Below are positions 26,860 through 34,361 of a stretch of DNA of 64,000 bases, piece by piece. How positions within the stretch are numbered: the first letter of the stretch is position 1; every line of letters starts with the position of its first letter. This DNA is from Arabidopsis thaliana (lineage: Eukaryota > Streptophyta > Magnoliopsida > Brassicales > Brassicaceae), in the NCBI RefSeq assembly GCF_000001735.4, contig NC_003074.8, positions 4,898,101 to 4,962,100 on the forward strand, in the 5' to 3' direction. The position numbers and the translations under genes were made by a program. The notes under the pieces were generated by a model that did no database searches, was not told the DNA's origin, and worked only from the letters and a program-made list of their open reading frames with translations.

Positions 26860-28811
26860 ATGGAGATATCAGTTGCATCGGTAACAGTTTCTGTAGCTGT
26901 AGTTGTTGTGTCATGGTGGGTATGGAGAACTTTACAGCGGGTTTGGCTTAAACCAAAGATGCTTGAGAGTTACCTGAGAAGACAAGGTCTTGCCGGAACT
27001 CCTTACACGCCTCTTGTCGGTGATTTGAAGAGAAATTTTAGCATGCTGGCTGAGGCAAGATCCAAACCCATCAACCTAACAGATGATATCACACCACGTA
27101 TCGTGCCTTATCCGTTGCAAATGCTCAAGACTCATGGTATGCTTCCCGGTTGGCATCTTGATTCCTCTTTGTTTAGAACTATTTTGTAGAGTATCTAGAA
27201 AAAGTTTCAACTTTCGTATCTCTATGTGGTTGAAACAGGGAGGACTTTCTTTACATGGTTTGGACCCATACCAACAATCACCATAATGGATCCTGAGCAA
27301 ATCAAAGAAGTGTTCAACAAAGTTTATGATTTCCAGAAGGCACATACGTTTCCTCTGGGCAGATTAATAGCGGCTGGACTCGTTAGTTATGATGGTGATA
27401 AATGGACAAAACACCGAAGAATCATCAACCCGGCTTTCCACCTTGAGAAGATCAAAGTTTATAAGCTTTCTTTTCCGTAGTCCCAGTTTAGCTTTATGTA
27501 TGTATGTCCATTTGGTTCTGAACCAATTTGTGTCCTCTGCTTTTATGTACAGAATATGGTACCTGCGTTCCACCAGAGCTGCAGCGAGATTGTTGGCGAA
27601 TGGGACAAGTTAGTGACGGATAAACAGTCATCCTGTGAGGTGGATATTTGGCCTTGGCTTGTGAGTATGACTGCAGATGTGATCTCCCGTACTGCATTTG
27701 GCAGCAGCTACAAAGAAGGGCAGAGGATATTTGAGCTCCAAGCGGAATTAGCACAGCTCATCATTCAAGCTTTTCGGAAAGCTATTATCCCTGGATATCG
27801 GTAATAAAATCCCAAACTTGTCTGCTTTTAGAACAAGGCCTTTTAGAGCTTCAGTAGTGCTGCATTCTACTAGAGACTTTGAACCATGTTTTGTAATAAA
27901 AACCCTAACTTGTCTCTCTGTCGTCTGTTCGTGTAGTTATTTCCCTACAAAGGGTAATAGAAGGATGAAAGCAGCAGCTAGAGAAATCAAATTTATACTG
28001 AGAGGGATCGTTAACAAAAGGCTTAGGGCAAGAGAAGCTGGGGAAGCACCAAGTGACGATTTGCTGGGTATACTTCTTGAATCGAATTTGGGACAAACAA
28101 AAGGAAATGGAATGAGTACCGAGGAACTGATGGAGGAGTGCAAGTTGTTCTATTTCGCTGGGCAAGAGACTACTACAGTACTTCTGGTTTGGACAATGGT
28201 GTTGTTAAGCCAACACCAAGATTGGCAGGCTCGTGCAAGAGAAGAAGTGAAGCAAGTTTTTGGCGATAAAGAACCTGATGCAGAAGGCTTGAACCAGCTC
28301 AAAGTTGTAAGTAAACCGAACCAAAAACCTTCAAGTGACGTGAGTTCTTTTGTTGCATTGAAGCTGAAAATTTGATCCCTCACAGATGACGATGATATTA
28401 TATGAAGTCCTTAGGCTATATCCTCCAGTAGTCCAGCTGACCCGAGCCATTCACAAAGAGATGCAGCTAGGTGACCTGACACTACCAGGCGGCGTTCAGA
28501 TAAGTCTACCAATTCTGCTAATCCAACGCGACAGGGAGCTGTGGGGAAACGATGCAGGGGAGTTCAAGCCAGATAGATTCAAAGACGGTCTCTCAAAGGC
28601 AACAAAGAACCAAGTCTCCTTCTTTCCTTTTGCGTGGGGACCGAGGATCTGCATTGGCCAAAATTTTGCACTGCTTGAGGCAAAGATGGCAATGACACTG
28701 ATTCTACGGAAATTCTCCTTTGAGCTTTCTCCTTCTTATGTTCACGCGCCTTACACAGTCCTCACTACTCACCCACAGTTCGGTGCTCCTCTTATCTTGC
28801 ACAAGCTCTAA
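26860..28811 (+). CDS. CYP72A13: cytochrome P450, CYP72A subfamily
   Basis: Five exons (26860-27136, 27239-27456, 27553-27800, 27937-28306, 28386-28811) encode 512 residues. It is the second copy of the CYP72A10/A11 duplication and is most like CYP72A11, but keeps the usual AGQETTT and [12 protein letters not shown] motifs that A11 has changed. It also has [12 protein letters not shown] and FKPDRFKDG. The exon 2 donor reads AAA|GTTTAT instead of the AAG|GTTTAA of its neighbours, a weaker site that could lower splicing. Its 3' flank is interrupted 500 bp downstream by a Mutator-like transposon. Substrate is not evident from sequence. Confidence 0.94.
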
Positions 28812-28929: not shown

Positions 28930-29308
28930 AACAAATCTCAGTTGTGAAACAAAAACCCAAGACTATAGACAAGAGATCACAAACCCTTTTTTTGAGAATT
29001 GACTCAGTATTTGTTCTTCATCAACGACTATTCTCTTCCGGTTACTGATTAGAAGCGGCAACGCTTGTATCCAGAGAAGCCGTAGCCAAAACACTTCATA
29101 CCAATCAAACATGTTGGATTACGTCGTGATTTCGCCTCAACAATGCTCAACCAAATCTTACAGTCTCTTTGAAACAGAGTAACCCATAGAATAATCGAAC
29201 GACAGATGAGATTCTCCAAATCGATCGCTTCTGAATTCGCTAAAAACCCCAATTTCTTCATCAACGGTGATATTCGCGGAGGAGAGGTTCTATATGACGG
29301 CGCAATGT
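28930..29308. repeat. 3' flank of CYP72A13, paralogous to the CYP72A15 3' flank
   Basis: This non-coding stretch matches the region downstream of CYP72A15 (about 41380-41730). Shared landmarks in the same order include ACAAATCTCNGTTGTGAAAC, CAGTATTTGTTCTTCAT, ACAGAG, CATCGCTTC/GATCGCTTC and GGTTCT before the GACNGCG segment. The match stops at the transposon target site and resumes after 34361 (GACTGAACGAC). The duplicated P450 unit therefore included several hundred bp of 3' DNA. I see no convincing gene in either copy. Confidence 0.7.
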
Positions 29309-29359
29309 TATAATTTGAGAAAATGTCTGAAAACTCCCTTTTTGTCAAGAGCTAACCTC
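29308..29359. repeat. left 9-bp target-site duplication and terminal inverted repeat of the MULE
   Basis: TTATAATTT at 29308-29316 is followed by a 43-bp terminal inverted repeat beginning GAGAAAATGTCTGAAAACTC (29317-29359). It pairs without gaps with the right end, about 33 of 43 positions matching by eye, including AACTCC, TTTTTG and CTAACCTC. Confidence 0.88.
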
Positions 29360-29731
29360 ATATCTCCCCAACGAAAACAGAAAGGAATTTTGATTTATTT
29401 TTAATTCGTTTTGTATGGATTTTACTTGTATACCCCAACTGAAATCGAATATTTACAATAAAAATTTGGATCTATTCGATCCAGACCCGATCCATTATCC
29501 CAAAGAGAATATATTTTATTGGATCTCTCTTCTATTCTTCGGTTTCTTTTTCTTTTGAAAACGAAACTGAAACTTCTCCTTCTCAATTTCAAAAGCTTTT
29601 CGATTTATGTTCCTCAAACCTCAAACCGCTCTCGATTTCAATCCTCTCCCTTCTCTACTCAAATTCTCAACAAGAATCCTAATCTCTTCTTTCTCAGAAT
29701 CTTTTCTTCTCCTTCTTTAACCCTAACCCTA

Positions 29732-30768
29732 ATGCCGCTGAAAACAATGCTGAGAGGAGTAGGAACGAAGGAGAATTCAACGACGGAGGAGCCTCCGCCG
29801 GGAACGAAGCCAATCGATGCTGTCACAAAGGCAACGACGGAGCCTCCGATGACGACGGAGGAGCCATCAGCGTCGAAGCAAAATCCGGTCGTAATTGAGG
29901 GAAGAGGAGTTGAAGAAGAACAAATCCCGACCATAATCACGACCGTAGTGGAAGAAGGAGAGAAGTCTGACAACAATGAGGAAGAAAATTCTGAGAAGGA
30001 TGAGAAAGAAGAGAGTGAAGAAGAAGAGAGTGAAGAAGAAGAGAAAGAAGAAGAAGAGAAAGAGGAAGAGGAGAAAGAAGAAGAGGGGAATGTTGCCGGA
30101 GGAGGATCCTCCGATGATAGTAGTAGAACCTTGGGCAAAGAGTCCTCCTCCGATGAGAATATGGATGATGAGACTGCAGTGGGAAAGCAAGTGGATATTC
30201 CGGCGGCTATGGTAAGGATTTCTCAAGTATTTGAATGGTGTGAAACTGGTAGAACAGGATAATACTATGATTTCTGTAGAAAACTGTCATTACTAGGATA
30301 TAACTATGTGTATGAATTCTGGGTAACATTGGTAGTACTAAGATAGAACTATGTGTATGATTTCTGGGTAATACTGTCATTACTAGGATATAACTATGCG
30401 TTTCTGGGTAATATTGTCATTACTAGAAAATAACTACGTGTATGATTTCTGGGTAATACTGTCATTACTAGGATATAACTATGTGTCTGATTCTAGGTAA
30501 CGTCGGTAGTAATATGAATGAATGTTTGTTGCAGAAGATCAACGAGATGGGCCAAGAGAATGATGGGGATCCGAAAGAGAAGGATGGTGATCTAGAGAAA
30601 GATGGTGATCAAGAGAAGGACCCGAAAGAGAAGGACCCAAAAGAGAAGGATCCGAAAGAGAAGGACCCAAAGAGAAGGACCCGAATGGTCCTTCAAAACC
30701 CGTGGAAGCAAACTTCACAAGAAGGACCACTCAGAGAACCAAGAGTTGAATTTGGTTGTACTTGTTAG
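29732..30768 (+). CDS. acidic low-complexity protein encoded inside the MULE
   Basis: Two exons (29732-30211, 30535-30768) encode about 237 residues. The ATG at 29732 (MPLKTMLRGVG) follows a short telomere-like CCCTAACCCTAATG; the frame is open further upstream but without an ATG. The protein is Thr/Pro/Glu-rich, then has long Glu/Lys runs, then in exon 2 a repeat of KEKDP. No domain is recognised. The intron contains a 45-bp tandem repeat with YAGTATTAY motifs. After the KEKDP repeats the frame reads KRRTRMVLQNPWKQ; a single-base slip in an A run would instead give KEKDPNGPSKP, so the C-terminus may be frameshifted. As cargo of a transposon it may be an accessory (VANB/VANC-like) gene or a degraded captured gene. 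Annotations list a hypothetical gene here (At3g14670 by order). Confidence 0.6.
30259..30505. repeat. tandem repeat block A, about 45-bp unit, 5-6 copies, in the intron
   Basis: Units of about 45 bp begin ATGATTTCTGGGTAATACTG and continue with TCATTACTAGGATATAACTA, with starts near 30267, 30312, 30357 and 30442 and truncated copies between. Exact RTAATACTR (the reverse of YAGTATTAY) occurs at 30259, 30368 and 30453. The block almost fills the intron of the acidic gene. Confidence 0.85.
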
Positions 30769-30910
30769 GATTTGAATTTGGAATGTTTGGTTTTAGGATT
30801 TGAATGTGGTTTGTTTTGTTTGGATTTGACTCCGGATTTGTTATGTTAGGATTTGAATTTGATAAGTTTTTTTTGAATATCAATTTGGATATGAATTGGA
30901 ATTTGATATG

Positions 30911-31175
30911 TTAGGATTTAACGATAATACTGAGAATACAAGAGAATACTAGGATTTAACGATAATACTGAGAATCCAAGAGAATACTAAGATTTAACGA
31001 TAATACTGAGAATACAAGGGAAAACTAAGACTTAACGATAATATTGAGAATACAAGAGAATACTAAGATTTAACGATAATACAGAGAATACAAGGGAAAA
31101 CTATGATTTAACGATAAAACTGGGAATACAAAGGAATACTTAATGACGATAATACTGGAAATACAAGGGAATACT
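30911..31175. repeat. tandem repeat block B, 38-bp unit, about 6-7 copies
   Basis: The unit begins GATTTAACGATAATACTGAG and continues AATACAAGAGAATACTA. Exact RTAATACTR copies at 30924, 30962 and 31000 are spaced exactly 38 bp, with another at 31149 and one-base variants between. It lies between the convergent 3' ends of the acidic and GRF genes. Confidence 0.88.
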
Positions 31176-31239
31176 CAATAAAAGTCTTACAAACCAAAGA
31201 CAGAAATTAAGTTCACACAAACCCAATAATTCCTCACTT

Positions 31240-31690
31240 TCCACAACAAACTCTCCACAAAGTCCCCATCTTTTTTTGGATCTCATCCAACTCCGAACGC
31301 ATTTCTTGGTTAGAGTACTCCAAGCTTTGAATCTTTTGGTGATGGTTATCAACTTGCTCTATCCCATAGCTTTATCCCAAAGTTTCCGAATGTATAACCC
31401 ATCATTCTACAAAACATGAATTCTTAATAGAAATCAATTATTCTAAAACAAGATTGATGATATTTATATCTTCAATTTACCTTATACACGATGCATTTAT
31501 AGTATCTTTTTCCTTTGTCACCATCGTTCTCAGAGATTTTGTCAAGGATTTGTCCACCACAAGGACAAATTGCCGGAATTCCTTCCATCATTGCAACTTC
31601 TTCAAGTTGCTGTATTATCCTCTTAGCGCTCTTCATCTCATCATACCATGGATCACTCTCACACAATCGATCCATAAATGATTGGAGAGA
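31240..31690 (-). pseudogene. GRF-type zinc-finger protein gene of the MULE, probably broken
   Basis: On the minus strand, the segment from about 31675 down to 31480 encodes MEGIPAICPCGGQ, a stretch with SENDGDKGKR, then YYKCIVYK. This matches the GRF zinc finger (CxCG, then a Ser, an Arg/aromatic pair and Cys) common in small Arabidopsis transposon proteins. A following segment (31360-31240) encodes a coiled coil, GIEQVDNHHQKIQSLEYSNQ, then MRSELDEIQKKMGTLW and a stop, as in the family. The two are separated by an intron-like stretch, and the start of the coiled-coil exon seems shifted by one base (RKLWDKAMG and GIEQVD lie in different frames). Upstream, the frame runs through a Ser/Leu translation of GA microsatellites that is unlikely to be protein. 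Function is not known. Confidence 0.5.
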
Positions 31691-31739
31691 AGAATTTTTG
31701 AGTGAGAGAGAATGAAGAGAATGAAGAGAAATTGAGATC

Positions 31740-31741
<2 letters not shown>

Positions 31742-31774
<33 letters not shown>

Positions 31775-31777
31775 TTT

Positions 31778-31841
<64 letters not shown>
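31742..31841. repeat. (GA)n microsatellites
   Basis: Two GA tracts, 31742-31770 and 31780-31841, are separated by the 9-bp GTGAATTTC, within the 5' region of the minus-strand GRF gene. GA/CT tracts are common in plant 5' UTRs and core promoters. Confidence 0.9.
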
Positions 31842-31844
<3 letters not shown>

Positions 31845-31998
31845 ATTTCGATAGAGATAAATGATTTCGAGAGAGAGAGAAGATATTTTGTGGGAAATTG
31901 GTTTTGGGGGGAATTTGGTTTTGGGGGAAAATTTGTTTTGTTTTGGGAGGAAATTGAAATTGGAGGGAAAGTTAATTTTTGGGGGGAAAGGTGTTTTC

Positions 31999-32004
31999 CA
32001 CGTG
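31999..32004. promoter_or_regulatory. G-box (CACGTG) inside the MULE
   Basis: CCACGTGG lies about 320 bp upstream of the GRF gene's ATG on the minus strand, next to a G-rich/T-rich stretch. It may be part of that gene's promoter; only the motif supports this. Confidence 0.3.
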
Positions 32005-32444
32005 GGCGCAGATATTTAGACATGTGCGCCGTTTTTTTAAAGTTAGTTGTACTCTAGTTTTTGGTTGTACAAAATGCCCACATAGTTGTATTTTTTGTGT
32101 TTTCCAGTTTAGGCAGTATTACATATCTTTTAAGATGATTTATCTAGTTGTTCAGATTAAGGAAGTCTATCATTATAGAATTCTAAAGGTTTAATGTAAT
32201 TATATGTAGACAATATATGAAATTGTAAAATTTCAATCTTAAGTTGGAGTTTATATCAAACGTGAGCTTAAAAGTATAAGGAATATGTAGGATAGTGTCT
32301 ATTAAAATGTGTTTTGACCAAATATTTTTTTTCCTAATTTAATTTGTTTTAATTCATTTTTAAGAGTTCTTCATCTTTGCATAATCTATTTAATATTTGA
32401 TGTTTGAAACAAACATAAATTCGAATTTTAATATCCTTCAATAG

Positions 32445-32615
32445 TATTCCCTTGTATTTCCAGTATTATCTTGTAATCATAGTATTCCCTTGTTTTCCCA
32501 GTATTATCGTCTAATCATAGTATTCCCGTGTATTCTCAGTATTATTGTTAAATCATTGTATTCTCCTGTATTCTCAGTATAACCCTTATGCCAATAAATT
32601 AAAACATAGTATTAC
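32445..32615. repeat. tandem repeat block B', inverted relative to block B
   Basis: Thirty-eight-bp units such as AGTATTCCCTTGTATTTCCA followed by GTATTATCTTGTAATCAT are the reverse complement of block B. Exact YAGTATTAY occurs at 32461, 32499 and 32537 (again exactly 38 bp apart) and at 32607. It lies just past the 3' end of the transposase remnant. Confidence 0.88.
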
Positions 32616-32632
32616 TGAAGGAAAGTCTAGTG

Positions 32633-33464
32633 TTACATAGCTGCACAACACGAATAAGGTTTACAAATCATAAAATCAAATATTATGGGTGCCAAATAAC
32701 AACCATTGCAGCGACTGCCTCGGCCTCCTTTTGTCTGAGTCTTTTGACGTTTTGGATGTCTTTCTCCGGTGGAAAGAAACCTAAGCACTTCTGTTCTACC
32801 CTTCTTCTTTTTCCGAGGCAGAGGTAATACCTTCAACGCTTTGATGTCATCCGGGATATCCCACTGTGATCTATTCGGGACAAAATAAATAGTCCTATAA
32901 TACGCTAATGCCCACAACTCCGCCCAATAATTCTTTGAAACCAATTCATGTAATTCCATATCTCGAGTTCTTGTTGTATCGTGATCCAATCTCAGGATCT
33001 TGAGTATCATCAACCTCCACTATTGCCTCATTTTGTTCTGTTTCTTGTCCCTCCAATTCGCCCATCACGATGGCAGCATTATCTCTCATTTCATCATCAT
33101 TTGAACCCAAATCAGCATAGTTCTTACCAATAGAACTTTTATTGACGACCTCCACTCTCGACAGTTACTTGGGCAATTCCGGTGGAGTGATGACGTCAAC
33201 AGTCAAAGGATATCTACTAACCATTTCACCTGAAGATATATAGACACCGACATCCTCATCATCACTAATGTGTATCTCTTGAGTTGGTCCCAACATCACT
33301 GCATTGCACTTCATTTGCAATTTAACCATACTTTTATCTAATCCAAGCTTCGTGCAAATCCTACTTTCTAACATGGAGAGAGTTATTTTCCCTCCTGGTG
33401 TATTCATCAACAAGTTGTACGCTCGATCTTTCCATATAAAATATATAATCACCTTCTCCACCAT
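32633..33464 (-). pseudogene. MURA-like transposase remnant, N- and C-terminal parts only
   Basis: The minus-strand segment 33165-33464 encodes MVEKVIIYFIWKDRAYNLLM and continues to SDDEDVGVYISSGEMVSRYP, the N-terminal domain of Arabidopsis MULE transposases. An acidic linker follows at 32946-33155 (DEMRDNAAIVMGELEGQETE). Then 32633-33013 encodes a C-terminal part with AYYRTIYFVPNRSQWDIPDD and a basic region, as after the SWIM finger, with only a degenerate zinc knuckle (SRCNGCYLAP). The roughly 400-500 residues of DDE catalytic core and SWIM finger expected between them are absent, and the pieces lie in different frames. This is therefore a deletion derivative, not an active transposase. I infer it was once the VANA/MURA gene of the element. 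Confidence 0.72.
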
Positions 33465-33499
33465 TGTATCCTACAAAATCAATACAAAAACCTCTATCA

Positions 33500-33715
33500 G
33501 ATATACTAGTTATACTACAATTCTGGGTAACACAAGTATAACTAGTTATACTACACATATCTGTATAATACAGTTATAACTAATAATAGTACATGTAAAT
33601 GGGTAATACTACTGTACCTAAGAAATACTACATGTAAATGGTTAATACTAGTGCAACTAAGTCATACTACATACATCTGGATAAAACTAGAGCTACGGGT
33701 AATACTACATATATA
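33500..33715. repeat. degenerate repeat block A' upstream of the transposase remnant
   Basis: Diverged units with ACTAGTTATACTAC, GTATAACTAGTTATACTACA and CATGTAAATGGGTAATACTA share the vocabulary of block A. Exact RTAATACTR occurs at 33603 and 33699. It lies directly 5' of the transposase remnant's start codon on the minus strand. Confidence 0.7.
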
Positions 33716-34309
33716 TTTTTCAATTGAATCATGTGCAATTCTACTCAGTTCTACCAGTTGTATTTCCCGACAATAACTCAAATCGCATGGTTTCGGGTTC
33801 AAAACTACAATTCACTCTGATTCAGTTGTTGTAATCCATTTCTTACCCATTTTACAGATCTATTCAACCCAGGCAGTATGCATAAACTTCCAATGTGCAT
33901 ACCCAAACACAATTTGCTTAATCTCAAATCTAATTGACAACAATCTCCTAGTTTTCTAGGTTCAAAACTTCAATATTAAGCTCTATGCAGCTCGAGTAAG
34001 ATACCTTTTCTTTCTATCTCGACGCAACTCGTCGGAGGGAGAGGATACGACAACAATGGCGACTGAAATCAAATTTCGATGATGAGAGCGATGAGAGCTC
34101 GAGCGAGAAGAAGCTGAGAGGAGAGAGAGAGGAGAGGCAAGAGAGAGTCGAGAGAGAGTCGAGAGATTTTTTTTTTCCTGTTTTATTTTTTTTTTCTTTT
34201 CAAAAACTAAATAATTTAAAAATGAATAAAATAAAGAAGGAGAGGGTAAATTCGTCAACTCACAATTCATTAATAGAGTGGGGGATATGAAGACAAAAAT
34301 AGGATACAA

Positions 34310-34361
34310 GAGGTTAGTGTTTGGCAAAAAAGGAGTTATAAGATTATTTCTCTTATAATTT
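34310..34361. repeat. right terminal inverted repeat and 9-bp target-site duplication of the MULE
   Basis: The 43-bp right end (34310-34352), read inward on the minus strand, begins GAGAAATAATCTTATAACTC. TTATAATTT follows at 34353-34361, identical to the left flank. The sequence after it (GACTGAACGACGCCGTTCG) aligns with the CYP72A15 flank at about 41728. Confidence 0.88.

Follow-up and report, generated by a model that had tools for sequence, protein, structure and literature searches.

An internally deleted VANDAL21-type element on Arabidopsis chromosome 3 retains dense YAGTATTAY arrays and is a predicted target of VANC21-type protein in trans

The VANDAL6 and VANDAL21 transposons share an anti-silencing system in which a VANC-type protein works via tandem motif arrays. 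VANC6 differs by its motif, AGTTGTCC or AGTTGTAC; the motif published for VANC21 is YAGTATTAY, both Y end letters included, and its density decides binding and targeting (Hosaka et al. 2017, PMC5735166). The same paper places VANC21 in introns and intergenic DNA, describes its action as a loss of non-CG methylation across the whole transposon, states that high motif density is unique to VANDAL21 loci, and assigns the accumulation of T-type motifs (YAGTATTAT) to VANDAL21_2. Degenerate terminal inverted repeats (TIRs) are a described feature of VANDAL elements (PMC10398659), and that paper also gives a comparable case from maize, in which non-autonomous Mu elements are hypomethylated by MURA of MuDR; there too a deleted copy is acted on in trans, although the protein and the target are different. 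Here we describe a 5,036-bp Mutator-like element (MULE) at positions 29317-34352 (chr3:4927417-4932452) of a 64,000-nt stretch of Arabidopsis thaliana DNA, the whole of which is called the window. Judged from its sequence, it is a broken, non-autonomous VANDAL21 copy, the protein machinery of which has gone through internal deletions and in which DNA sites of the VANC docking type are retained. We read it as a VANDAL21_2-type MULE without working VANA, VANB or VANC that has kept its ends and its VANC-binding arrays, and it is most probably a passive target in trans.

The likeness to VANDAL21_2 as described in PMC5735166 extends to YAGTATTAY arrays of both T and C type within introns and between genes, the layout of VANA, VANB and VANC, degenerate TIRs and a 9-bp target site duplication (TSD); the element differs in having neither the DUF1985 and DUF287 exons nor the transposase core. 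This is one more copy in a known system, and it may already stand in published VANDAL21 lists. What is new is the anatomy of two deletions and a re-reading in which the resident gene is left over from VANC; the mechanism of VANC action, as published, gains no further principle from them.

The initial annotation of this DNA had listed 13 YAGTATTAY sites in the element and had named the sequence as the VANC21 motif, in agreement with PMC5735166. All 13 were found at the listed positions and strands, and a further one at 32114 (+) brings the number of exact sites to 14. The whole window contains 15, with a single site in the approximately 59 kb outside the element. The genome rate (5,445 sites per 119.66 Mb) predicts 0.23 sites per 5,036 bp, which gives a 61-fold excess in the element, and dinucleotide shuffles of the element (n=1000) yielded the same mean of 0.23 sites with a maximum of 3, in line with the original estimate of well under one site in 5 kb. 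In shuffles of the window (n=100) the mean was 1.96 sites and the maximum 6, and 15 was never reached; sites within tandem repeats are not independent of one another. The enrichment held in the very scan that had been named at the outset as able to overturn it. The reversed motif, taken as a control, occurs more often genome-wide (6,841 sites), hence YAGTATTAY is not merely frequent AT-rich sequence. Chance or AT-rich composition as the source of the excess has next to no probability left: A+T content is slightly higher in the element than in the remaining sequence (63.7% against 61.7%) and the dependence among repeat sites speaks in the same direction, but the element shuffles peak far below the observed number and relatives have arrays at positions homologous to these, and we consider the explanation ruled out on these two grounds.

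The sites are arranged in arrays, as in VANDAL21. Tandem Repeats Finder arrays enclose 11 of the 14; the site at 30259 lies on the edge of the first array, that at 32607 follows the third at a distance of 27 bp, and that at 32114 is single. The array periods are 45/85 at 30266-30500, 38 at 30915-31175, 38 at 32441-32580 and 39 at 33508-33714. Given our gene reconstruction of the element, every site is intronic or intergenic. Eight sites are T-type, as accumulated in VANDAL21_2, and six are C-type, a mix that, on sequence grounds, fits the published VANDAL21_2 subgroup. Arrays 2 and 3 have one motif per 38-bp unit and are mutually inverted over about 147 bp at 83%, with the arms 1,376 nt apart. 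Such an arrangement, which is found in relatives as well, might act mainly as a source of small RNAs feeding RNA-directed DNA methylation (RdDM) against related copies, so that the element would promote silencing and not escape. The targets of VANC are reported to overlap with those of RdDM, and silencing of autonomous copies can reportedly be set off by non-autonomous ones (PMC10398659). We regard a role of this kind as quite unlikely, since the inversion goes back to the ancestor of the family and one transcript reading through both arrays would be hypothetical.

Dense motif clusters are rare in the genome. Motif pairs spaced 14-44 bp number 87, against 34 for the reversed control; 59 of the 87 are no more than 5 kb away from DNA relatives (counted with 43 of the at least 86 DNA matches), 11 lie at three further loci with DUF1985 or DUF287 matches, and 17 lie elsewhere. 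Four are in the element. The element is therefore one of few loci of such density, in keeping with what PMC5735166 states on high density and VANDAL21 loci. Two overlapping dense pairs (at least three motifs) at C5:13498141-13498230 stand apart from the relatives found and perhaps mark another VANDAL21 fragment.

A genome DNA search with the element gave at least 86 matches (40 of 67 candidates scored), and joining matches by position showed at least about ten other copies sharing long segments with it, at 70-93% identity by segment. The region C2:10001001-10011000, which we take from its position at 10.0 Mb to be Hiun, the autonomous VANDAL21 copy (VANDAL21_1) that encodes VANC21, shares four segments at 68-78% DNA identity. 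Its content fits this name: the transposase frame is open over 793 amino acids, and exons of VANC type carry DUF1985 and DUF287. Hiun and the element agree in gene order, orientation and the placing of YAGTATTAY sites in non-coding DNA; they differ in that Hiun has an open VANA, VANC domain exons and nearly exclusively C-type motifs. The nearest relatives are VANDAL21-type elements, the kinship being judged against the genomic region that we label Hiun from position and content; a best match to a family other than VANDAL, the second outcome named at the outset as contrary, did not occur. On sequence comparison, the element is a member of a small family with the same arrays, and Hiun is a more distant kin. 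All but one of the 11 family regions (element included) contain T-type motifs, in agreement with the trait published for VANDAL21_2. With coding sequence lost to deletion, motif density was highest in the element among 12 regions compared (2.78/kb against 0.28-2.05 in the others, 1.60 in the Hiun region), where several bounds are approximate or set by the end of the sequence compared and the Hiun region includes flank. VANC6-type motifs number two in the element and 0-3 across the 12 regions; with only two copies there is no VANC6-type array, and VANC6-type targeting of the element was ruled out. A search for the exact ends of Hiun gave one weak candidate, with 11 of 20 terminal bases matching. 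In one relative about 2.0 kb of extra DNA was seen (C3:11406726-11408743); it is absent at the same point both in the element and in C3:13136116-13138050, so it is probably an insertion in the former copy.

Several observations weigh against a bound and demethylated element. T-type arrays predominate in the element, whereas the Hiun motifs are C-type in 15 of 16 sites and T-type in one; the affinity of Hiun VANC21 for this copy could therefore be lower, and binding of T-type arrays by the Hiun protein would rest on the pooled motif of PMC5735166. Conservation within the 38-bp units is 0.94 for the motif and 0.86 for the remainder of the unit, with one motif position at 0.72, which gives only a weak signal of selection on the motif. 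Cytosine transitions in the element amount to 0.058 in CG, 0.078 in CHG and 0.040 in CHH contexts, against 0.009 at A/T sites; the relatives are alike, and the spectrum thus carries no mark of an unusual unmethylated state or of past demethylation in this copy. The arrays might be inert relics, neither bound nor demethylated, owing to their decay, to their T-type motifs or to a lack of methylation in this euchromatic copy from the start. One motif mismatch in three of the seven units of array 2, a private divergence of 4.0% and a position on the chromosome arm agree with this. We nevertheless hold it to be unlikely, because 14 exact sites persist at the highest density of the regions compared, and in the account of Hosaka et al. 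(PMC5735166) it is the motif with both Y ends, and its density, that decide binding.

The ends of the element are those of a MULE, with terminal repeats and a 9-bp TSD that is perfect, as had been annotated (TTATAATTT on both sides). The 43-bp TIRs annotated with it are also present, but we call them imperfect because the terminal 43 bp agree at only 33 positions. Between these ends the coding part has been reduced by two deletions (Table 1). At the point of deletion 1, the relatives C3:11412403-11410837 and C4:5568723-5570360 have about 1.57 and 1.64 kb, respectively, containing DUF1985/DUF287 matches. No DUF287 match was obtained in the element, and the Hiun DUF1985 exon found none there by tblastn while matching 8 of 11 related regions, the remaining three being only partly covered or much shortened. 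At the point matching window position 32980, relatives hold about 1.55 kb, and two copies are shorter there, C3:11404268-11413614 with about 0.77 kb and C2:4826-4827 kb with about 0.53 kb. Residues ~177-686 of VANA are absent from the element by tblastn with Hiun VANA, whose DNA-binding domain (DBD) lies at 210-271, MULE domain at 405-499 and SWIM domain at 649-689, most of the last within the lost stretch. Homology to MULE transposase persists in the two VANA stretches that flank the loss and in a Plant_all_beta domain above the cut-off, although the catalytic core itself is deleted; the remnant is distributed over open reading frames at 33470-33165, 33164-32946 and 33019-32633. With the VANC domain exons and the VANA core deleted, and with stops and frame changes besides, the element has neither the working VANA nor the working VANC of an autonomous VANDAL21.

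Table 1. Features of the element and its borders (window positions)
Feature	Position	Strand	Details
Left TSD TTATAATTT	29308..29316		same 9-mer at 34353-34361
Left TIR, degenerate	29317..29359	+	33/43 identity to right end; ends of relatives alike
VANC first exon (resident gene exon 1)	29732..30211	+	160 codons, acidic, disordered; open frame ending ATG/GTAAGG
VANC intron	30212..30534	+	GT...TTGCAG borders; holds motif array 1
Motif array 1, within VANC intron	sites 30259, 30368, 30453	-	tandem repeats
Deletion 1 junction	30530..30552		~1.5-1.6 kb lost, VANC DUF1985 and DUF287 exons; seen from relatives
Downstream VANC exon, KEKDP repeats (resident gene exon 2)	30535..30768	+	abuts exon-2 acceptor through deletion 1
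Motif array 2	30915..31175	-	seven 38-bp units; exact sites at 30924, 30962, 31000 and 31149
Broken VANB-like gene	31237..31675	-	GRF-like exon 1, coiled-coil exon 2; 59% identity to Hiun exon
Single YAGTATTAY site	32114..32122	+	motif scan
Motif array 3	32441..32615	+	38-bp period; sites 32461, 32499, 32537, and 32607 just beyond; inverted relative to array 2
VANA transposase remnant	32729..33491	-	residues ~1-176 and 687-776 only (tblastn, Hiun VANA); stop and frame change
Deletion 2 junction	32960..32998		~1.55 kb lost: DBD, MULE, most of SWIM domain
Motif array 4, upstream of VANA	33508..33714	-	sites 33603, 33699
Right TIR, degenerate	34310..34352	-	33/43 identity to left end; ends of relatives alike
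Right TSD TTATAATTT	34353..34361		perfect copy of left TSD

The resident gene, whose nature had been missed initially, can be read as an in-frame fusion of VANC exon 1 to a downstream VANC exon and as a by-product of the VANC deletion. In three relatives, the stretch immediately before the DUF1985 exon matches exon 1 of this gene, and relatives have a KEKDP-repeat exon downstream of their DUF1985/DUF287 exons. A splice acceptor ending TTGCAG is present on both parental sides of the deletion 1 junction; therefore the fusion retains acceptor and frame. The spliced product has 237 amino acids, 72 of them acidic and 34 basic. The acidic exon has no Pfam support (best E 0.061, below the cut-off) and Hiun VANC exon 1 had no match in the element by tblastn at 1e-4, so that the assignment of exon 1 to VANC rests on position and on the three relatives. 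From gene order, we take the gene to be probably AT3G14670. PMC11817481, the only paper retrieved by literature searches with the gene name or UniProt code, counts AT3G14670 among the wholly disordered proteins and calls it hypothetical; the word stem 'transpos' is absent from the main text of that paper. On our reading, what was published as a wholly disordered, hypothetical protein would be left over from a transposon, which, if so, matters for surveys of disordered proteins. One could further imagine an anti-silencing cheater, in which deletion concentrated the VANC-binding arrays and created an in-frame, domain-less, acidic, wholly disordered 237-amino-acid VANC under a VANC-responsive intron, so that VANC21 would switch on a decoy locus and a truncated VANC able to titrate or modulate the system; we think this highly improbable.

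The VANB-like gene is frame-broken and is truncated by a stop after DKAMG, where six of the seven matching relatives read on VEEVNRLREQ. Its GRF match is under the Pfam cut-off (21.4 against 25.9 bits) and the Hiun exon has no Pfam match, so that 'VANB' is an assignment by position. The leader of this gene contains a (GA)n repeat some 50 units long (31742-31841), and relatives have related GA runs.

Returning to the element as a passive target, a VANC21-type protein made by another copy would bind the YAGTATTAY arrays, and methylation would then be lost across the element. Without such a protein the element would remain silenced; any mobilisation would be by VANA in trans. As the element has targets and no effector domains, any demethylation must come in trans, and trans-demethylation is a strong prediction from the known system (PMC5735166). 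Besides Hiun, a VANC, here of VANDAL21_2 type, could also come from the relative at C4:5567383-5575604, whose DUF1985 and DUF287 exons are free of internal stops. With target arrays and none of the effector domains, the chromosome-arm copy described here is a naturally occurring case in which the VANC system can be tested.

The initial annotation had further suggested an influence on the CYP72A13-CYP72A14 interval. For this we found no support, and any influence of the element on cytochrome P450 genes is conjecture: hypomethylation is confined to the target transposons as described in PMC5735166 and PMC10398659, no link to P450 expression was found, and a literature search joining CYP72A13, CYP72A14 and 'transposable element' returned nothing. 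An effect on the CYP72A genes was therefore rejected; the upstream P450-like frame, which includes a haem-binding stretch, stops at 28811, leaving 505 bp between it and the element. At the left end of the element, a 100-amino-acid stop-to-stop open frame (29049-29351, minus strand) spans the end and the TSD; its C-terminal part falls within host sequence, and the element may thus have inserted where a small minus-strand gene begins.

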